This document shows positions 5,591-36,456 of a stretch of 36,913 nt of DNA, piece by piece. Every line of letters starts with the position of its first letter. Positions within the stretch are counted from its first letter, which is position 1. This DNA is from a virus, in the IMG/VR virus record IMGVR_UViG_3300037796_000051, positions 1-36,913 of that record; one strand, 5' to 3'. The position numbers and the translations under genes are program-made. The notes beneath the pieces were generated by a model, which saw nothing but the letters and a program-made list of their open reading frames with translations, made no database searches and had not been told where the DNA came from.

Positions 5591-6762
5591 TGAGTATTGA
5601 ATTTGCGGGCCTGATGGAGGCCGATGGTGTACAGGCGGCGACGTTTGAAGCGTTGGCACGCCAGAACGCACAGATCAGCCGCGACACAACCGAATACAAA
5701 CGGCGTTTTCACGAGGCTCAGTTGTATCTGGACAAACTACGAACCAAGCAGACACGCATCCCGCTCCGTGAGGCAATGTCCACCAGCGATTTCCCCAACC
5801 TCTTCGGGGATATCCTCTCACGTCGTCTTGCTGCTGACTATATGGTATACGGCACGTCCTGGACAGAGTATGCCGAGCGCCGAATGGTGCCTGACTTTCG
5901 CAACGTCAAGACGTTCGCCGTGTATGGCGGCGACCAGTTGCTCACAGAGGCGCCCGAAGGTACCACCGGCGTGGGTTATAAGCCTGTGGAAGACCGGGAA
6001 CTTACTGAATATGCCGTCAAGAAGTACGTGCGGCGACTCCAGTTGACGATGGAAGCACTCGTGAATGATGACCTTGGCGCGTTTGATCGGTTGCCTACCA
6101 AGTTGGCGGCAGGCGCTCGCCGCAGTGAAGAGAAGTTCGTAACTGAACTGTACGCAGGCACGTCGGGACCGCTCGCGGCTGTCTACAACGCAACCAATAA
6201 CAACGTCGTCACGAGTAACCCGGAACTCTCAATCAGCGCACTCCAGACGGCATACCAGGTACTCAAGAACCAGACTGATGAAAACGGGCTGCCCATCTTT
6301 ATCGATGCGGTGACGCTCGTAGTGCCGCCTGCACTGGAGATCACAGCACGCAACATTCTCAACGCGACACAACTGGAGATCGGCCTTGTGGGCCAGGGCG
6401 CTGTTGCTGCCCCGGCGGATGAGCAGCGGATTGTTACCGCAAACTGGATGGCGAACAAAACGCAGATTGTCGTCAATCCGTGGCTGCCGTACATTGCCAC
6501 GTCTAATGGCGATACCTCGTGGTATCTGTTCGCATCGCCCACCAGCGGGCGCCCGGCGATTGAAGTGGGGTTCCTGTCGCTCCTGGGAGGCGCGCCTGCG
6601 ATTTTCCGGCGCCGTCCAGACGCCGTGAGCCTGACCGGCAACACCGAAATTCCCATCGGCTCGTTTGATAGTAACGCCTACGAGTGGGGCGTGATGCATG
6701 TGTTCGGTGGGCAACTGGCCGATTTCCGCTGCACGGTGGCTAGTAACGGAAGCGGCTCGTAA
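5590..6762 (+). CDS. Major capsid protein (HK97-fold)
   Basis: A 390-residue protein translated from an overlapping start (TAATG) after the protease-scaffold. The N-terminal 70 residues are helical (N-arm). Then come TRIPLREAMSTSDFPNLFGD (about residues 55-74), an extended-loop-like segment with FAVYGGDQLLTEAPEGTTGV, and the long helix EEKFVTELYAG. A beta-rich P/A-domain section contains TLVVPPALEITARNILNA, and the end contains EWGVMHVFGGQLADFRC. The length and order are those of HK97-type capsid proteins. It is expected to be the most abundant virion protein. Confidence 0.85.
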   Translation: MSIEFAGLMEADGVQAATFEALARQNAQISRDTTEYKRRFHEAQLYLDKLRTKQTRIPLREAMSTSDFPNLFGDILSRRLAADYMVYGTSWTEYAERRMVPDFRNVKTFAVYGGDQLLTEAPEGTTGVGYKPVEDRELTEYAVKKYVRRLQLTMEALVNDDLGAFDRLPTKLAAGARRSEEKFVTELYAGTSGPLAAVYNATNNNVVTSNPELSISALQTAYQVLKNQTDENGLPIFIDAVTLVVPPALEITARNILNATQLEIGLVGQGAVAAPADEQRIVTANWMANKTQIVVNPWLPYIATSNGDTSWYLFASPTSGRPAIEVGFLSLLGGAPAIFRRRPDAVSLTGNTEIPIGSFDSNAYEWGVMHVFGGQLADFRCTVASNGSGS

Positions 6763-9769: not shown

Positions 9770-10155
9770 TAGCAGTATCGACAGCACAACTGGAGCGGCT
9801 CGGCATTGTGGCACGCCAAAAGCCGTTTGCGTTGATGAACGGCACAAGCGGACGCGTCGTCGGCCCGGTTGACGCGGCGTATGACGCCCTGAAATGGGTC
9901 ATCAGCGTGGGCCGTAATGCGAACGGCGGGCATGTCTCAGTGGAGATTGAGCACAGCCCAGACGGCGATGCCTGGTACGCATACGAGCCGCCACTCGTGT
10001 ACCAGACAACGAACGCGGGCGAGACGGCATATATTGATATGACGCGAGCGGATGATGTGCCAGCGTCAACGATTGCGCTACGCGCCGTCATTCGCGGGTG
10101 GTTCGAACTGGACTGGCAGCATGCCGGAGTAGAGGTGGTGTGCCGCTATGCCTAA
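9766..10155 (+). CDS. Hypothetical virion-associated protein, 129 aa
   Basis: The ATG at 9766 overlaps the previous stop. The protein is predicted beta-rich (VISVGRNANGGHVSVEIEHS, ALRAVIRGWFELDWQHAGVE). Its regular strand spacing, few charged clusters and Trp-rich end suggest a sandwich-like fold, perhaps carbohydrate-binding. It precedes two sugar-transfer genes, so it may be a structural protein or a substrate for them. No family is recognised. Confidence 0.5.
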   Translation: MIAVSTAQLERLGIVARQKPFALMNGTSGRVVGPVDAAYDALKWVISVGRNANGGHVSVEIEHSPDGDAWYAYEPPLVYQTTNAGETAYIDMTRADDVPASTIALRAVIRGWFELDWQHAGVEVVCRYA

Positions 10156-10843
10156 CGTTTTGATCGCTGTTCCCATCCATACGGGTATTCATCGCCGCAC
10201 CCTGGATAGTCTTTTCCAGTTGCAGCACAGCCGCGCATACCAGTCTGACATTGTGATGCTGCGAGGTGGTGACGAGCATATAGCCGATGCCAAAACGCGC
10301 ATCGCCTGGAAGTACAATCAAGCTCGAGATATGTGCCTACGCGGCAACTATGACTACCTATTGACGGTTGAGCAGGATATCGTATTCGAGAAAGACGCGC
10401 TCACACGGATGCTTGCCACGCTAGACGAGCACGACGCCGATGTCGGCTATGCGCTCTACTGTTTTCGGCAGCCGCCGTTCTATCGTTGGAATGCATTCCC
10501 GGCGATGGATAACGTGACGTTCACAGGTCAATCGCTATCGTTCTTTCCAGAGCGGGCGCGGGCCGCGTGGGGCAGCGTGATCGAATGCGAGGGCCAGGGC
10601 AACGGATTTACCCTCATTCGTCGCCGCGTCTTGGAACGCATTCGCTACCGTGTCGAGCACCGCATTGGAGAAGGCGCCCACTCCTCGCAAGACACCTATT
10701 TTGCTTTTGACTGCCAGATGGCAGGCATCAAACAGGTGTGCGATACCAGTATCGTATGTGGGCATATCGATATGCAGGAAGGTGCGTTTGTCACGCTGTG
10801 GCCGGATATCAACGAAGAGAAGATGCACAGGATTGAGGCATGA
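10148..10843 (+). CDS. GT-A glycosyltransferase-like protein
   Basis: A 231-residue protein. MPNVLIAVPIHTGIHRRTLD is a typical nucleotide-binding start of family-2-like glycosyltransferases. YDYLLTVEQDIVFEKDALTR (about residues 66-85) places an acidic motif (EQD) where the metal-binding DxD usually lies. QGNGFTLIRRRVLE and the C-terminal IVCGHIDMQEG (His and acidic) complete the usual order. It is expected to move a sugar from a nucleotide-sugar to a protein or glycan. The acceptor is unknown. It overlaps the preceding gene and is coupled to the next. Confidence 0.75.
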   Translation: MPNVLIAVPIHTGIHRRTLDSLFQLQHSRAYQSDIVMLRGGDEHIADAKTRIAWKYNQARDMCLRGNYDYLLTVEQDIVFEKDALTRMLATLDEHDADVGYALYCFRQPPFYRWNAFPAMDNVTFTGQSLSFFPERARAAWGSVIECEGQGNGFTLIRRRVLERIRYRVEHRIGEGAHSSQDTYFAFDCQMAGIKQVCDTSIVCGHIDMQEGAFVTLWPDINEEKMHRIEA

Positions 10844-11949
10844 GCGACTACCCAACTTTGACTATTGTTACCGCACTGAGCAGGCCGGAGTATCTACCGG
10901 GCATATTCGAGAGCCTGAACACAGCCGAAGGACACAACCTGGACATTCGGCATTACATCATCCATCCACATGGCGCCACACATCCGGGGAATGGGCGGGC
11001 CGATATGGCGCGCAACGTTGGCGCGGCACTCTCCAGCATCCGTGATGGCTGGGTCTGGATTTTGGACGACGACAACAGCGTGCATCCGGGATTTTTTCGG
11101 CGGCTCGAGGAGGAAATCGCAGCGCAGCCGGAGGCGCGGGCGTTTGTGTTCTCTCAGGAGCGCGCCGACGAGCGGCGCCTCTTGCAGGCCGCGCCGGAAA
11201 ACGTCCGCATCGGCAGTATTGACACAGCGCAGTTCGTGCTACGCCGCGATCTGATCGGCGACCTGCGGTGGTGCGAACTGCCCGTGCATGACGGTATTTT
11301 TATCCAGGAATTGTACGAACAATGTCCCGAAGATTTCCGCTTTGTGGACGAAGTGCTGTGCTACTTCAATCGTCAATCGCACGGCGCGCCACGCCATGTG
11401 ATGGTCAACCTGGGGTGTGGCACCGACGTGCGTGATGGCTGGATTAACATCGACAGCGCGCCGCGTGCAAACGTCAAGGCACACGATATCCGACAGGGAT
11501 TACCGTTTTTTAACAACAGCGTTGACTACATCTATGCATCGCACGTCTTGGAACATCTCGACTATTCCGTCGCGTTGAAACTGATTGACGAGTGCCATCG
11601 GGCGCTCTTGCCTGGTGGTGTGGTGCGGCTCGTGCTGCCAGATGTGCCGCGCCTCCTCGCTGACTATGTGCGTGGGGATGTGTCTGACTGGACAGGCTTT
11701 ACGCAGTTCGTGTGCTCTGCCATTCCCGGCGTAGAGGAACCACAGCCGATTGATTTTGTTAACGCTATCATTTTTAACGTGGCACGCGACCCGCATCGTT
11801 ACGTCTGGGATGTGCCGCGCCTGTGCGATGTACTACTGGCAGCGGGTTTTGCGACAGCGGAGCCGGTTGCATTCGACAGCCGCATCGATATCGATGATCC
11901 ATTCAGAACTGATCATTCATTCTATGTAGAAGCTCGTAAGGAGGGCTAG
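10840..11949 (+). CDS. Fused glycosyltransferase-methyltransferase
   Basis: A 369-residue protein with two domains. Residues about 1-180 look like a GT-A glycosyltransferase (SDYPTLTIVTALSRPEYLP, then GWVWILDDDNSVHPGFFRRL with a DDD metal motif). Residues about 188-365 form a class I SAM methyltransferase: MVNLGCGTDVRDGWINIDSA is motif I with the acidic end of strand 2, followed by IYASHVLEHLDY (motif II/III region) and LLPGGVVRLVLPDVPRLL. Such a pairing could add and cap a sugar. It is coupled to the upstream glycosyltransferase (ATGA). Confidence 0.8.
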   Translation: MSDYPTLTIVTALSRPEYLPGIFESLNTAEGHNLDIRHYIIHPHGATHPGNGRADMARNVGAALSSIRDGWVWILDDDNSVHPGFFRRLEEEIAAQPEARAFVFSQERADERRLLQAAPENVRIGSIDTAQFVLRRDLIGDLRWCELPVHDGIFIQELYEQCPEDFRFVDEVLCYFNRQSHGAPRHVMVNLGCGTDVRDGWINIDSAPRANVKAHDIRQGLPFFNNSVDYIYASHVLEHLDYSVALKLIDECHRALLPGGVVRLVLPDVPRLLADYVRGDVSDWTGFTQFVCSAIPGVEEPQPIDFVNAIIFNVARDPHRYVWDVPRLCDVLLAAGFATAEPVAFDSRIDIDDPFRTDHSFYVEARKEG

Positions 11950-24899: not shown

Positions 24900-25100
24900 T
24901 CACAGCGTGAATGTGTCATCATCATCATCAGGCGACTGTGGCGGCTGTGGCGCGTTCTGTTGCTGTATACCGCGCAGTAGGGCCGCCTTTACATCGTTTT
25001 GGCGTTTCCGTAATGAGAGGCTGTCGAGCCATTTGGCGATGGCGTTGTCGCTCTCATCGTCCAGATAGAGCAGCAGTGTATAGCGGCGCGGCTCAGGCAT
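24900..25100 (-). CDS. parR: ParR-like partition adaptor, 66 aa
   Basis: The ATG at 25100 overlaps the parM stop (8-base overlap). The upstream extension of the frame is a shadow of parM. MPEPRRYTLLLYLDDESDNA starts a short strand followed by two helices (IAKWLDSLSLRKRQNDVKAA), as in small ribbon-helix-helix ParR/StbB proteins. The C-terminus DDDDDTFTL is acidic and could contact ParM, as the C-terminal tail of ParR does in known systems. It is assigned by its place directly after the actin-like gene and its size; sequence identity is low. Confidence 0.65.
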   Translation of the reverse strand: MPEPRRYTLLLYLDDESDNAIAKWLDSLSLRKRQNDVKAALLRGIQQQNAPQPPQSPDDDDDTFTL

Positions 25101-26145
25101 CGTCACGGCCCCACTTCTGCACAGCCATTTCTGCATATCCCCTGACAGGCGCCTCGTGTGGCGCGTGTTTTTCTGGCATTCCCATCGGCAGTTTTCCGTG
25201 CCACGTTGCGCGAATGGACGGCCCGAACGTCGTATCTGTTGCGCCGCCTCCAACAACTAGCAAATAATGCGTTGAGAACCCTTCAAAATGGGCACGTATC
25301 TCCTCATGTGCGCGTGCCCAGAGACTATCACGAAGGTCGTCAATCTCAGGCGCGATGCTCTCATCCTTGCCGTCAATGGTCACAACCCGCTCTGCAATGG
25401 CCCGATCAACCTCCCAGAGTTCCGGCAGACCCGGCGCGCCTTGCAATCGCTGGAGTAACTCGGCAACCTTGCTACGTAGCGTCTGGACGCCAAACCGCAA
25501 CGCTTTAGAACGTCGGTAGATTTCTTGCATCTCACTGCTGCCATCGGCGCGGCGTTCGGGCCGGAGCGCGATCAAGTCGGTGGTAAATGTACCCACGTCA
25601 ATGCCAATAATGTTGGCCTTATGGAGCGGTCGCTTCTGGAGTGCCTGTTTCAGCTCGGCAGGAGTATGTGCGCTGAAATAGAGCACGGCGCCGCGCGGCT
25701 GCGAGGTCACATGCACGTCTGTGATATTCACACGGTAGCTCGCGTCCGCTCGCGTGAACTCATGTGAGCCTGTGAAAAAGTCTTGAATGTCGCGTTTCAA
25801 TGCGCGATATGCTTCCGCGTTCGCCCCCGCGACCATCCGAATGGTGTACTCTCCAGGCGGGAGTAGTTCGGAAAGTGCGGCGTAGAGGCGGATGTGCGCA
25901 TCTGGCGACGTGTAGCGGTAGTTGCTCGTGGCATAGGCGGTGGCGCCCTGTGCGCGGGCCGCATCGCCTACAAGATACTGATTACGATTATGACCGATAA
26001 CAATCACATCAGGGCGCAATAGGTATTCTTCATCCATGCCTGCCTCAACGGGTAGCACTAGTGCTGGTATCGCCGTGACCTGCATTCCATTGTCCGCTAC
26101 ACCCGCCTTTGTCAATCCAGCTCCATCATCATACACGACATGCAT
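25093..26145 (-). CDS. parM: ParM-like actin-family ATPase
   Basis: A 350-residue protein starting at ATG 26145 (GAGGAGGGG upstream). The actin-superfamily motifs are in order: VVYDDGAGLTKAG (phosphate-1, about residues 3-15), GIDVGTFTTDLIA (phosphate-2, about 181-193) and YLLVVGGGATDTTFG (adenosine motif, about 294-308). The length fits plasmid ParM/Alp proteins rather than chromosomal MreB. It would form filaments that push ParR-bound centromeres apart. It shares an operon with parR and lies downstream of three 11-bp repeats. Confidence 0.8.
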   Translation of the reverse strand: MHVVYDDGAGLTKAGVADNGMQVTAIPALVLPVEAGMDEEYLLRPDVIVIGHNRNQYLVGDAARAQGATAYATSNYRYTSPDAHIRLYAALSELLPPGEYTIRMVAGANAEAYRALKRDIQDFFTGSHEFTRADASYRVNITDVHVTSQPRGAVLYFSAHTPAELKQALQKRPLHKANIIGIDVGTFTTDLIALRPERRADGSSEMQEIYRRSKALRFGVQTLRSKVAELLQRLQGAPGLPELWEVDRAIAERVVTIDGKDESIAPEIDDLRDSLWARAHEEIRAHFEGFSTHYLLVVGGGATDTTFGPSIRATWHGKLPMGMPEKHAPHEAPVRGYAEMAVQKWGRDDA

Positions 26146-26160
26146 ACACCCCTCCTCACA

Positions 26161-26193
26161 ACAACTTATAACAAACTTATAAGTCAATTATAA
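26161..26193. repeat. Three tandem 11-bp repeats, candidate centromere (parC)
   Basis: ACAACTTATAA (26161-26171), CAAACTTATAA (26172-26182) and GTCAATTATAA (26183-26193) are exact tandem 11-mers sharing the TTATAA core. Plasmid parC sites bound by ParR are built from short tandem repeats close to the helical pitch, placed just before parM. Here they also overlap the -10 of the parM promoter, so ParR could autoregulate it. Confidence 0.7.
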
Positions 26194-26195
26194 CA
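26187..26195 (-). promoter_or_regulatory. Extended -10 promoter of the parMR operon
   Basis: TGTTATAAT on the minus strand. A TTGACA-like box at 26201-26206 lies only 8 bases away, too close to serve as a -35, so the extended -10 is the main element. The start would be near 26180, within the repeats. Confidence 0.6.
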
Positions 26196-31885: not shown

Positions 31886-32096
31886 TGGTCGTCTCCTTTG
31901 TTGCTTCGTTGAACTGTTCATACCGCTCCACGATAGAGCGGGCCTCTTCCATCCGTCGCGTGGTGCCGATGATCATATCATCACACCACACGTCTGCCAC
32001 GCCTGTATCGAGATGTAGCAGTAGTGCCGAGCCGCGGTAGAAATTCGGACACAATGACTTGTCTAAAAATCGCAGCCAGGGACGCGAATGTTTCAT
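31878..32096 (-). CDS. Hypothetical protein, 72 aa
   Basis: Strong ribosome site (GGGGGAGGA), start overlapping the repressor stop. MKHSRPWLRFLDKSLCPNFY then LLLHLDTGVADVWCDDMIIG: alpha/beta. Unknown. First gene after the repressor. Confidence 0.5.
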   Translation of the reverse strand: MKHSRPWLRFLDKSLCPNFYRGSALLLHLDTGVADVWCDDMIIGTTRRMEEARSIVERYEQFNEATKETTNE

Positions 32097-32362
32097 TCCT
32101 CCCCCTCTGTTACAATATGCTCCAACAAATCATCCAGTTCAACAATGTACTCCAACAGATGGCCGGGTTGAACGTTGTAGTATGCGCAAAGTCGTGCGAT
32201 CATGTCGCCCGTTGGTGTCTCGCCTGGGTTGTTCTCAAAAAATGACACGCGCGATCGACTGAAGCCAATTTCACGAGCCACATCTGACACGGAAAGATTT
32301 TCGCCCAATTCCGCTGCTCGTTGCAGGCGAACATCTCTCAATTTATTCACAAGCTTCCCCAT
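32093..32362 (-). CDS. XRE-family repressor, 89 aa (cI-like)
   Basis: Start ATG 32362, after AGAAAGGAGAGGGGG; the frame extends about 66 codons further but that part lies in the promoter region. VSDVAREIGFSRSRVSFFEN is the Cro/cI-type helix-turn-helix, with a preceding N-terminal helix (KLVNKLRDVRLQRAAELGEN) and the C-terminal DLLEHIVTEGEE dimer-type helix. Unlike lambda cI it has no peptidase domain, so SOS self-cleavage is not expected. It sits opposite the early promoter and is likely the lysogeny repressor. Confidence 0.85.
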   Translation of the reverse strand: MGKLVNKLRDVRLQRAAELGENLSVSDVAREIGFSRSRVSFFENNPGETPTGDMIARLCAYYNVQPGHLLEYIVELDDLLEHIVTEGEE

Positions 32363-32395
32363 AAACCCCCTCTCCTTTCTCCTCTGCACAGGCTC

Positions 32396-32424
32396 ATTGT
32401 ATCTCATCACAACCGTTTTGTCAA
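32396..32424 (-). promoter_or_regulatory. Repressor promoter (leftward)
   Basis: Minus strand: TTGACA (32424-32419) and TACAAT (32401-32396), 17-base spacer. The start lies about 27 bases before the repressor ATG. It drives the repressor-led operon of small genes. Confidence 0.8.
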
Positions 32425-32465
32425 CATCCCCATACGCTTCGTAAAACAACCTAGACAAAGCGGTT
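32411..32465. promoter_or_regulatory. Inverted operator pair in the divergent control region
   Basis: AACCGTTTTGTC at 32411-32422 and GACAAAGCGGTT at 32454-32465 are inverted copies differing at one of 12 positions. Each overlaps the -35/spacer of one of the two divergent promoters, so one repressor could control both directions. Confidence 0.7.
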
Positions 32466-32480
32466 ATAGTATGATACAAT
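32452..32480 (+). promoter_or_regulatory. Early rightward promoter
   Basis: TAGACA (32452-32457) and TACAAT (32475-32480), 17-base spacer, start near 32487. It drives the replication operon beginning at 32526. Confidence 0.75.
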
Positions 32481-32525
32481 AACAGCACGTCGCAACGGGC
32501 GGCGCCACACAAAGAGGAGCATCGG

Positions 32526-32675
32526 ATGAACCACAAGCACGTTGAGTACGACACGATCACAGGCGACTATGCCGCGTATCTGGACGGCGACCTTATAGGA
32601 TTTTATCCTACGCGCCAGACAGCGCAGGCGGCGCTGGATGATATCGTTTTCAAACGTTTGAAAGGGCAAAGGTGA
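32526..32675 (+). CDS. Early protein, 49 aa
   Basis: First gene after the early promoter, with AAAGAGGAG. MNHKHVEYDTITGDYAAYLD through GFYPTRQTAQAALDDIVFKR: short strands and a C-terminal helix. It overlaps the next start by one base (TGATG). Its place suggests a regulator (Cro-like role), but no HTH is evident. Confidence 0.6.
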   Translation: MNHKHVEYDTITGDYAAYLDGDLIGFYPTRQTAQAALDDIVFKRLKGQR

Positions 32676-33429: not shown

Positions 33430-34065
33430 ATGCAACGTAGTGAGACAATTGCAAGCATAGCCCCGGCGCTGACTAAGGCGCAGGCTGCTGTGAAGCCTGC
33501 TGCGAAGGACAGCCTTAATCCACATTTTCGCAGCCGCTACGCCGACCTGGGCGCCGTGTGGGATGCCTGCCGCGATGCCCTGGCCGCGAACGAACTCAGT
33601 GTACTGCAACTCCCCACGGCAGCCGAGACGGGGTACTGCGGTCTGGAGACAATCCTGCTCCACACCAGTGGGGAGTTTATCAGCAGCACCGCACAAATCC
33701 CACTTGGCAAAAATGAACCACAGGGCTATGGTTCGGCCCTGACGTATCTGCGCCGCTACTCGCTAGCATCATTGCTCGGTATTGTTGCCGACGATGACGA
33801 CGATGCCAGTGCTGCACAACCGCAACGCGGCGCCAGCCACCAGGCAGCCAGGGAGAGTAAGCACAACGGTATACCGAAGGCGGGCGCGCAATTGGTTCGA
33901 AAACTGAAACTCGCCCGCGATGAGGGGCGCCGACGAGGAGTGGCATTACCCGAAATGACGAGCGGGCAAGTCAGTGCGATGAGCGCCGAAGAGGTTGAGG
34001 CCGCGATTGAGGAAACGCGCAAACTGGTGTATGGTGATGTGGCGGCAGAAGCAGGGGAGGTATAA
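33430..34065 (+). CDS. erf: ERF-family single-strand annealing protein
   Basis: A 211-residue protein. SIAPALTKAQAAVKPAAKDS, FRSRYADLGAVWDACRDAL and ISSTAQIPLGKNEPQGYGSA, then LTYLRRYSLASLLGIVADDD follow the ERF core, in which 'N..F...YA.L..V..A......G......' precedes 'G...TY..RY.L....G'. Acts in recombination and genome circularisation, together with SSB. GGGAGG is upstream of the ATG. The C-terminal third is linker-like and basic. Confidence 0.8.
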   Translation: MQRSETIASIAPALTKAQAAVKPAAKDSLNPHFRSRYADLGAVWDACRDALAANELSVLQLPTAAETGYCGLETILLHTSGEFISSTAQIPLGKNEPQGYGSALTYLRRYSLASLLGIVADDDDDASAAQPQRGASHQAARESKHNGIPKAGAQLVRKLKLARDEGRRRGVALPEMTSGQVSAMSAEEVEAAIEETRKLVYGDVAAEAGEV

Positions 34066-34478
34066 TGCAACAGATCACAATTATCGGGAATGTGTCCATG
34101 AACCGCTCCGAGATGAAGTACACGCAAAATGGCAAGGCTGTTATGACTATCTCGGTAGCTGTCAATCGCCGGAGCCGTGACGGCAACGAGGAGCCGCCAA
34201 CGTGGTACCGCGTCTCTCTTTGGAGCGGGCAAGCAGAAGCATGGGATGGGAAATTACGCGACCGTGTGAAAGCGGTTGCGGTGACGGGTGAGCTTGAGGT
34301 GCGCGAGTTTACCCGCAACGACAACACTGTCGGCTATTCGCTCGATATCCCATTCCCGCATAACGTGGAGGTTGTGGCCTGGAAAAATGACACAACCGAG
34401 GATGAACCACAGCCCGCCCGCCGCAATCGCCCGACACCCGTAGCGGCGCACGAAGGTGAGGGAGACATGCCGTTTTAG
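34065..34478 (+). CDS. ssb: Single-stranded DNA-binding protein
   Basis: A 137-residue protein coupled to ERF (TAATG). MQQITIIGNVSMNRSEMKYT, VMTISVAVNRRSRDGNEEPP and TWYRVSLWSGQAEAWDGKLR form the OB fold in the usual order. The C-terminus GEGDMPF resembles the acidic tip DDDIPF that recruits partner proteins. Confidence 0.85.
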   Translation: MQQITIIGNVSMNRSEMKYTQNGKAVMTISVAVNRRSRDGNEEPPTWYRVSLWSGQAEAWDGKLRDRVKAVAVTGELEVREFTRNDNTVGYSLDIPFPHNVEVVAWKNDTTEDEPQPARRNRPTPVAAHEGEGDMPF

Positions 34479-34543: not shown

Positions 34544-35731
34544 ATGGCAGATTACGACAATGCACGTGCTGCAATACAGGAACTCCTAGAGGGTGCGACA
34601 GAACAGCCTGCTACCGGGCTAGACGCGTGGCAGCACGTCTATGATGATCTCTACTCCATCTATCAAAGCGACGGGGTAGAGGGTGTGCGTCGTGCAGCAA
34701 TGGCAGACAAAACGATAGTCAAGTTGATTGCAAGCGGCAAGGACTTGACGTATACCACGGGGCAACCTGTCCCCGTCAGTGCCCGCGATTTAGCATACAA
34801 AGACATTCCTCCTACACGGTACTACCTGGATGGTATCCTGCGCACGGGGTTGGCGCTATACATCGGCAACCCAGGGATAGGCAAGACGCCCGCTCTGTTG
34901 CAGTTGGCAATTGCGCTCACCTACGGGGGCCGTTGGATGGGGGCATTCCAGTGCCGTAAAAGTCGCGTGCTGTACATCGGTGTCGAGTATGACGAAGCCT
35001 ATATGCAGGAGTTGTTGATTGATAGCCACGGCAGCAAGGACTTGCCCGATGGCCTGTTCATCCACACCGTTGAGACATTCACTCCGCCCACCAGCGAGGC
35101 CGATAGTATCGAGATGATGGAGTTCTATATTTCCACAATGCAGATCGACGTGGTGATTATTGACACGTTTTCCGGATTTTTACCCCGCGAAAAGTTTAAA
35201 CAAGACAAATATCGCGGGGATTATGCCGAGTTCCTCGCGTATCATCGCATTAGCCTGAAGCATAGCGCGCTCATCCTCGGTTCATGGCATGGCACCAAAC
35301 GCGACCCAGACCCAGAGACGGCATACAACGGGGGCCAGGGCATGTGGGGCAGTGCTGGCGGTGGGCGCTTGACGATGTTCCGAGACAACGACGAAGAAGT
35401 GCGGTTGCGCTCGCAACTCCGTGGACACGAGCGACAGGAATGGTTACTCCAGCAGGTGCGCCTGGGGGAGGCTCGGCAGTGGGCAGTGGTAGACGCCGAC
35501 CCAGAGCCGATTTTTGGGAGCGACATACAACGGGACGTGTACCGCGTGGTGAAACAGTACAGCACGAAAGCGGAGCCGATCACGCCGGCGGGCGTGATGG
35601 GTATTCTCAAAGGTGACGACCCAACAAGTTCCATTAAAGAAGGCACCGTGCGACAGACGATGAACCGGATGGCAGATCGGGGCTTCTTTACCAAGGCGGG
35701 CGGCGGCTACATTGTTACAGGGCAAAAGTAG
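34544..35731 (+). CDS. RepA-like hexameric helicase (RecA-fold ATPase)
   Basis: A 395-residue protein. Walker A GNPGIGKT at about residues 108-115, Walker B IDVVIIDTFSG with Asp near 207. LGSWHGTKRDPDPETAYNGG corresponds to the sensor/linker region of AAA_25/RepA-type helicases. The N-terminal 60 residues are helical; the C-terminal 100 (VYRVVKQYSTKAEPITPAGV, GTVRQTMNRMADRGFFTKAG) form a winged helix. Likely the replicative helicase. It sits directly next to the iteron array. Confidence 0.75.
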   Translation: MADYDNARAAIQELLEGATEQPATGLDAWQHVYDDLYSIYQSDGVEGVRRAAMADKTIVKLIASGKDLTYTTGQPVPVSARDLAYKDIPPTRYYLDGILRTGLALYIGNPGIGKTPALLQLAIALTYGGRWMGAFQCRKSRVLYIGVEYDEAYMQELLIDSHGSKDLPDGLFIHTVETFTPPTSEADSIEMMEFYISTMQIDVVIIDTFSGFLPREKFKQDKYRGDYAEFLAYHRISLKHSALILGSWHGTKRDPDPETAYNGGQGMWGSAGGGRLTMFRDNDEEVRLRSQLRGHERQEWLLQQVRLGEARQWAVVDADPEPIFGSDIQRDVYRVVKQYSTKAEPITPAGVMGILKGDDPTSSIKEGTVRQTMNRMADRGFFTKAGGGYIVTGQK

Positions 35732-35914
35732 CTGTAACGCAAAAAGCCTGTAACAGCTGTAACAGGGCGCGAATATGGCATACCAAAGACAAATGAGCTG
35801 TAACGCAAGTTGTAACAGGGCTGTAACAGCTGTAACGCTTATAGAGACTAAGCATCAATAAGCGTTACACCTGTTACACCTGTTACAACTGTAACAGGTG
35901 TTACAAGCGTTACA
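35714..35914. repeat. TGTAAC iteron array, candidate replication origin
   Basis: Fourteen copies of TGTAAC or its reverse complement GTTACA occur in about 200 bases, many 9 bases apart. Forward copies start at 35733, 35749, 35758, 35799, 35811, 35822, 35831 and 35890; reverse copies at 35714, 35864, 35873, 35882, 35900 and 35909. A perfect 12-bp inverted repeat (35831-35842 with 35858-35869) marks where orientation flips. The first copy lies inside the helicase gene and the last ends 30 bases before the next start. Confidence 0.85.
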
Positions 35915-35943
35915 GCGAGTGAGGGAAGTTGAAGGGGTGTGAG

Positions 35944-36456
35944 ATGACCATTAAACCTATCGAGACACACTACAAGGGGTATCGGTTCCGAAGTCGGCTT
36001 GAGGCACGGTGGGCGGTGTTTTTTGATGCGTTGGGGTTGCGATGGGAATATGAGCCAGAAGGGTATGACCTGGGCAGTGTCGGGTGGTACTTGCCTGACT
36101 TCCGTGTCCAGTATCCCGGCAGGGCACCAGATGAGGCACACGCACGATGGATTGAAGTCAAGGGGAGTAAACCATCACAGGATTTTCTGCGGCATATGGA
36201 GTTTGCTAGGAATGTTGCTGACTTGACGGTGGTATGTGGACTGCCAGAATGCAAAGCATACACATGCTATACGTTTCTTGACAGTGAAGATGATGTACGG
36301 ATTGTCGATGCGTTACTGTGGTCAACCAAAGGGCGGATGTGGTTTGCTCCATCTGATAATGATGTTGCATATTATCTTAGTAATGAACCATTGTATATCA
36401 CAGCCATCAATGCCGCCCGCGCCGCACGTTTTGAGCACGGGGAGAATAGAAAATGA
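35944..36456 (+). CDS. Phage nuclease-like protein (PD-(D/E)XK-type pattern)
   Basis: ATG 35944 with GAAGGGG; an upstream TTG has no ribosome site. In the 170-residue product, ETHYKGYRFRSRLEARWAVF and FFDALGLRWEYEPEGYDLG match a phage family with a YLPDF...WIEVKG core (WYLPDFRVQYPGRAPDE, HARWIEVKGSKP). The D...EVK arrangement is that of PD-(D/E)XK nucleases. The C-terminal half is helical. Likely acts in replication or recombination. Confidence 0.7.
   Translation: MTIKPIETHYKGYRFRSRLEARWAVFFDALGLRWEYEPEGYDLGSVGWYLPDFRVQYPGRAPDEAHARWIEVKGSKPSQDFLRHMEFARNVADLTVVCGLPECKAYTCYTFLDSEDDVRIVDALLWSTKGRMWFAPSDNDVAYYLSNEPLYITAINAARAARFEHGENRK

Follow-up and report, generated by a model that had tools for sequence, protein, structure and literature searches.

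An iteron array at the 3' end of a RepA-like helicase gene as a probable replication origin in a tailed phage

Introduction

What is the function of a dense array of short repeats that starts within the end of a helicase gene, and which protein reads it? This question is raised by the DNA studied here, a virus record of 36,913 bp that we analysed over its whole length and refer to as the window. A sequence-only reading had suggested that the repeats are iterons of an origin, with the winged-helix C-terminus of a RepA-like helicase encoded next to them as the one candidate for a reader, and had regarded this as a novel arrangement. Our answer is that the array is probably the replication origin of the phage and that the RepA-like helicase encoded immediately upstream is its initiator; we put the probability of this reading at about 0.84.

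The claim of novelty, on the other hand, held only in part, since origin binding by a domain of the helicase itself has been described before. In SaPI Rep helicases the C-terminal domain recognises iterons directly downstream of the helicase's own gene, and in SCCmec the C-terminal domain of Cch2 binds short direct repeats downstream of its operon (PMC7581432). The PICIs have the same Rep-ori layout (PMC6092414). In phage P4 the winged helix of the replication helicase alpha binds the origin repeats, and RSF1010 has a separate iteron-reading protein, RepC (PMC4234260).

Results

The iteron array

The TGTAAC array is the densest cluster of any 6-mer in the window (Table 1). Exact TGTAAC/GTTACA sites occur 14 times within its 201 bp and only 11 times across the remaining 36.7 kb; the 14 copies in about 200 bases that had been reported are thereby confirmed. 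The maximum per 201 bp was 3 in 300 first-order Markov simulations, and the maximum for any 6-mer was 5 in 60 simulations.

The orientations have the following order: one minus copy is followed by seven plus, three minus, one plus and two minus copies. In other words, the orientation does flip around a perfect 12-bp inverted repeat, as had been claimed, with seven plus copies before it and mostly minus copies after it. The arms of this dyad, TGTAACGCTTAT (35831-35842) and ATAAGCGTTACA (35858-35869), are largely composed of two iterons facing one another. The start-to-start spacings are 19, 16, 9, 41, 12, 11, 9, 33, 9, 9, 8, 10 and 9; the recurrent 9-base spacing is therefore real as the commonest value (5 of 13), although it is not universal. 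The central spacer (35837-35863) is 63% A+T in a genome of 57% GC and might perhaps be the melting site. The predicted DNA fold of the whole array is strong (z = -7.65), largely because the iterons are inverted copies of one another.

Table 1. Positions of the array, its parts and the genes considered in the window.
Feature	Coordinates	Strand	Basis
TGTAAC iteron array, proposed replication origin	35714..35914	.	14 exact copies
Left block, 7 iterons, all +	35733..35836	+	site positions
Right block, 5 iterons - plus one + at 35890	35864..35914	-	site positions
Perfect 12-bp dyad, 15-nt loop, at the orientation switch	35831..35869	.	sequence
Gene of the RepA-like hexameric helicase (AAA_25; RecA fold; winged helix at the C-terminus), proposed initiator	34544..35731	+	Pfam, profile, AlphaFold
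C-terminal winged-helix codons (residues 327-391), proposed iteron reader	35522..35716	+	AlphaFold block, pLDDT about 91
Nuclease / Holliday-junction-resolvase-like gene directly after the array	35929..36456	+	PHROG 21138 at 2.8e-35
ERF single-strand annealing protein, in the helicase's module	33430..34065	+	Pfam ERF 1.2e-25
Single-strand DNA-binding protein, in the helicase's module	34065..34478	+	Pfam SSB 2.1e-17
Cro/CI-type HTH regulator gene	32093-32560		domain match
Actin-like (ALP/ParM-type) partition protein	25093-26187	-	domain match

The helicase gene and the genes around it

The gene upstream of the array encodes a protein of 395 amino acids without a primase domain, whose sole helicase-family match in Pfam is AAA_25 (9.8e-14); neither DUF927 nor D5/Primase_Cterm was matched. 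With the helicase family profile the best solved relative is RepA of RSF1010 (1g8y, 4.1e-15 over the core), and winged-helix regulators were matched separately over the C-terminus, at profile positions 250-311. The AlphaFold model of the protein has a mean pLDDT of 84. In PDB structure comparison its core resembles the RecA, RadA, Twinkle and DnaB folds, and the C-terminal block of the model consists of three helices (327-339, 348-358 and 366-378) followed by two wing strands (382-385 and 388-391), i.e. a winged helix. A first protein scan, made with the window only, gave no match.

The sequence-only reading had placed the array between the helicase and nuclease/primase genes. The helicase is indeed upstream and a nuclease-like gene downstream; however, the first iteron (35714) lies inside the helicase reading frame, and no primase gene was found immediately around the array, the contig ending 1 kb past it. 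Within the same limits no terminase gene was recognised near the array. The window encodes a portal protein, at its very start, and a major head protein, and we conclude that it comes from a tailed phage; with these structural genes it differs from a PICI, i.e. a satellite without a full structural set. The GC-skew check that had been suggested was run, but the skew in the window tracks gene orientation, so it decides nothing and was left out of the case.

Two other regions of the window deserve mention. The start of the partition gene is overlapped by three tandem 11-bp repeats (26163-26195, AACTTATAACA-like), which could be the operator or partition site of that gene, and the partition protein itself may mean that the prophage is maintained as a plasmid. 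Two genes at 10148-11949, amid the structural block, resemble in sequence a glycosyltransferase and a glycosyltransferase-methyltransferase fusion.

Arrays in other loci

A motif scan for three TGTAAC at 9-bp spacing selected at least 120 viral stretches. Among the matches listed, many loci lie either directly behind a D5/VapE-like primase-helicase gene or ahead of a terminase small-subunit gene, and the helicases that precede such arrays belong to the Pfam types AAA_25, D5_N, VapE, DUF927 with HTH_56, and DUF3631. In the reversed-motif control the inverted pattern gave 0 viral matches vs 5 for the real pattern. Proteins with collagen-like GYTGYT repeats mimic 9-bp TGTAAC arrays, and 18 of the motif-found loci among the matches listed are such coding repeats (they include many of L010, L023, L043, L049, L054, L071 and L081); surveys using the TGTAAC motif need to have these loci removed. 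A literature search for the motif returned noise only.

As motif-found loci are biased by their selection, helicase relatives were then fetched by protein alone, and an array was called if some 6-mer was present at least 6 times within 400 bp. Of the VapE/SF3 loci (n = 78), 82% had an array at the stop codon of the helicase gene, as opposed to 0-4% in stretches clear of the stop. The respective values for the AAA_25 loci (n = 23) were 48% at the stop and 0-9% elsewhere, with 17% at -600 and -400. These protein-fetched relatives carry other cores that differ by lineage, and the idea of TGTAAC as a universal signal was rejected.

A close relative, L135, has a helicase 71% identical to that of the window over the aligned region; the recognition helix of the winged helix reads EGTVRQTMNRM in the window and ENTVRQTMLRM in L135. 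The L135 array contains 13 TGTCAC copies, the first of them 7 bp past the stop. Six are in tandem at exactly 9 bp, inverted ones come next, and a DnaG-like primase gene follows the array. In other words, the period and the inverted layout are kept while the core changes from TGTAAC to TGTCAC. This bears on the suggested search for the same repeat in related phages: since relatives use different cores, the test is better worded as "same kind of array, same place". More distant are the PrimPol-AAA_25-winged-helix proteins of L040/L136 and L239, which are about 40% identical to the window's helicase; their TGTAAC arrays lie within the 3' coding end of the helicase gene, and in L239 a protein similar to the window nuclease begins after the array. 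TGTAAC arrays are found at the 3' end of AAA_25 genes in two genomic contigs (L123 and L126) as well, and an element of Streptococcus suis (L322) has a similar gene with GGTGAC repeats and a ParB gene downstream of the array. No array was seen in L153 and L154, AAA_25 relatives with an HTH-like C-terminus, nor at gp57 of mycobacteriophage Gadjet, a more distant relative that also has an HTH-like C-terminus.

A search of a plasmid collection with the window helicase returned a single relative, encoded by pATHE01, the native plasmid of Caldicellulosiruptor bescii (L320, NC_012036.1, 8.3 kb). This protein has an AAA_25 core and a winged helix, right after which there are six tandem ATTCAC iterons at 9 bp with inverted copies beyond. 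The annotation of the plasmid has seven genes, none of them from a phage, and this makes a packaging role for the layout less likely. Genetic tools are available for C. bescii (PMC3643907). The origin-like iterons of pATHE01 (6253-6612) lie within coding sequence and give the peptide SIHSIHSIH in what is the plasmid's only evident replication protein.

Arrays upstream of terminase genes

A second class of arrays, with TGTAAC/GGTTAC cores, lies ahead of the terminase small-subunit gene, at a distance of about 80-140 bp (L015, L017, L038, L048, L067, L092 and L107; relatives L240-L319). Of 74 loci fetched by protein, 39% had at least six copies at this site; the core is less variable than in the helicase class. 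Some of these phages carry a DNA polymerase I-type gene. The arrays of this class may be packaging sites, operators or origins.

Co-variation of the wing and the iterons

The relation between the protein and its putative binding sites was analysed in the VapE set; the AAA_25 set (23 loci) is too small for this kind of test. In the VapE set, with the core controlled for, the similarity of the iterons tracks that of the C-terminal domain (partial Mantel r 0.48, permutation p 0.001), and the reverse comparison, for the core, gave a partial r of -0.245. Within one VapE family the best 12 of 133 variable columns all fall within the last 16 residues. Between clades, the wing residue that follows GK is the top-scoring one among 291 columns (permutation p 0.0004); examples of the residues found after GK are MT and KC. 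Here N goes with GGTAGC (three clades), Q with GTCT (two clades) and R with GGTGA (most R clades), and for the most part L occurs with GGTAAC and V with GTTACA, although there are exceptions to each.

As iterons are found within the 3' coding end of the gene, a trivial coupling could arise. For the wing columns this was excluded by codon comparison: the wing codons are no more similar to their own iterons (0.566) than to those of others (0.565), so the link between wing and iterons is not an artefact of overlap. The tail beyond the wing does show an excess of self-matches with the iterons, as expected. We note that kinship of the sequences and recombination of the gene end and array as a cassette could inflate the co-variation, and that no homology between the VapE winged helices and that of the window was detectable by profile comparison. 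In one prophage family (L158-L237) the first 330 bp or so past the VapE-type helicase gene contain a conserved A+T-rich centre (like CCCCATTTATATATATAAG), and the flanking iterons differ among close relatives, as if iterons and wing were swapped around a fixed melting site.

Discussion

Origin or something else

The reading as a helicase-bound origin is based on an array well beyond chance, its anchoring to the 3' end of the helicase gene, the arrays of the relatives, the predicted winged helix, the co-variation in the VapE set, the plasmid pATHE01, and the experimental precedent of SaPI, SCCmec and PICIs. The anchoring, the winged-helix model, the co-variation and the change of core in L135 likewise support the earlier proposal that the iterons are of origin type and read by the C-terminal winged helix of the helicase. 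Against it speak several AAA_25 relatives without an array, the modest A+T content of the spacer (63%), the occurrence of the same core in arrays on the terminase side in other phages, and the source of the co-variation, a set whose winged helix is not detectably related to that of the window by profile comparison.

These terminase-side arrays are a reason to consider that the array is a pac/cos site, to which the small subunit of the terminase would bind for DNA packaging. In addition, the terminase genes are off the contig and, the window starting at the portal gene, could adjoin its right end on a circular map. We regard this as very unlikely. Arrays follow the helicase stop codon in loci fetched by the helicase, the array of L135 is followed by a primase gene, pATHE01 has the equivalent array and is annotated without phage genes, and iterons and helicase wing vary together among the VapE loci. 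A little less credible still is transcriptional control, with the array serving as an operator for the helicase or for a regulator of the Cro/CI type like the one encoded in the window. Operators are often bound by winged helices and HTH proteins, and downstream of the array there is a nuclease gene in the same orientation. However, when the array was scanned with consensus sequences for sigma-70-like promoters and for terminators, neither was found; two inverted blocks with 14 sites spread over 200 bp would be unusual for an operator, and among relatives the array is kept while the downstream genes vary.

Partition sites are often iteron arrays too, but a centromere-like site for the actin-like protein of the phage seems extremely improbable, as 9.5 kb separate the array from the partition gene, which has tandem repeats of its own, and the arrays of relatives come after helicase genes; the ParB gene downstream of the similar array in S. 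suis speaks in its favour. We give just as little credence to the array acting as a folded stem-loop rather than as separate binding sites. The strong predicted fold would agree with it, and so would pRN1, where a stem-loop of 100 nt located downstream of the replication gene is the origin (PMC4234260), but inverted copies of one iteron give such a fold anyway and relatives such as L135 keep the tandem spacing, not a long perfect stem.

Comparison with known systems

The origin layout of the window is most similar to the SaPI/PICI Rep-ori: in both, iterons lie directly 3' of the helicase gene in two opposed sets around a centre, and the C-terminal domain that reads them in SaPIs and PICIs may have its equivalent in the predicted winged helix. 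The differences are in the helicase, which is of the DUF927 or D5/Primase_Cterm type in SaPI Reps and a RecA-fold AAA_25 protein here, in the centre, which is AT-rich there and only modestly A+T-rich (63%) here, and in the element, a tailed phage with its own structural genes as opposed to a satellite. In other words, the window would work like a SaPI/PICI origin, yet it is not a member of that group by helicase family or element type. SCCmec Cch2 shares the C-terminal reader (predicted in the window) and the downstream repeats, but it has only three 5-nt iterons, a helicase of another family and an integrated cassette instead of a phage. RSF1010 shares the RepA-like core (1g8y) and an iteron array, but its reader is the separate RepC, whereas in the window the reader appears to be fused to the helicase as the C-terminal winged helix. 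P4 alpha has a Toprim primase fused to a helicase with an unrelated core, unlike the window protein, which is without a primase domain. In pRN1 the origin is downstream of the gene for ORF904, a protein that combines a primase and a helicase with a winged helix at its C-terminus (L239 likewise has a PrimPol domain), but this origin is a stem-loop without iterons (PMC4234260).

The layout is thus already known from the SaPI/PICI Rep-ori and SCCmec Cch2. As far as the open-licence literature was searched, the new elements are the core similar to RSF1010 RepA, the presence in tailed phages and a plasmid, the occurrence of one layout on unrelated helicases, and the code relating wing and iterons.

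A possible mechanism

If the array is the origin, we infer that the C-terminal winged helix of the helicase would bind the tandem, 9-bp-spaced iterons of both inverted blocks. Two helicase rings facing in opposite directions might then be loaded on either side of the central dyad, the DNA would melt at the dyad between them, and the RecA-type core would unwind outwards, giving a bidirectional start. A separate primase and the host polymerase would presumably act next; the primase gene is not seen in the contig and is located after the array in L135.

Implications

We lean, at odds only slightly better than even, towards a more general view, that of a self-specifying replicon. In this scheme many unrelated helicases of mobile elements (RecA-type AAA_25, VapE/D5 SF3 and DUF927) would each carry a C-terminal DNA reader, and each would have its origin iterons where its own gene ends. 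For the VapE type at least, the bases of the iterons would be set by a small number of wing residues through a readable code, and new, mutually compatible replicons would arise by joint change of the gene end and the repeats. If this is true, finding the origin of a phage or plasmid reduces to checking the 3' end of the helicase gene. The RepA-type helicase, which in RSF1010 depends on a separate initiator, would be linked to a self-targeting form, and a layout described as unique to PICIs would be widened to tailed phages and a plasmid. Given the co-variation of wing and iterons, origin specificity, and hence replicon compatibility, would be testable by a handful of substitutions.
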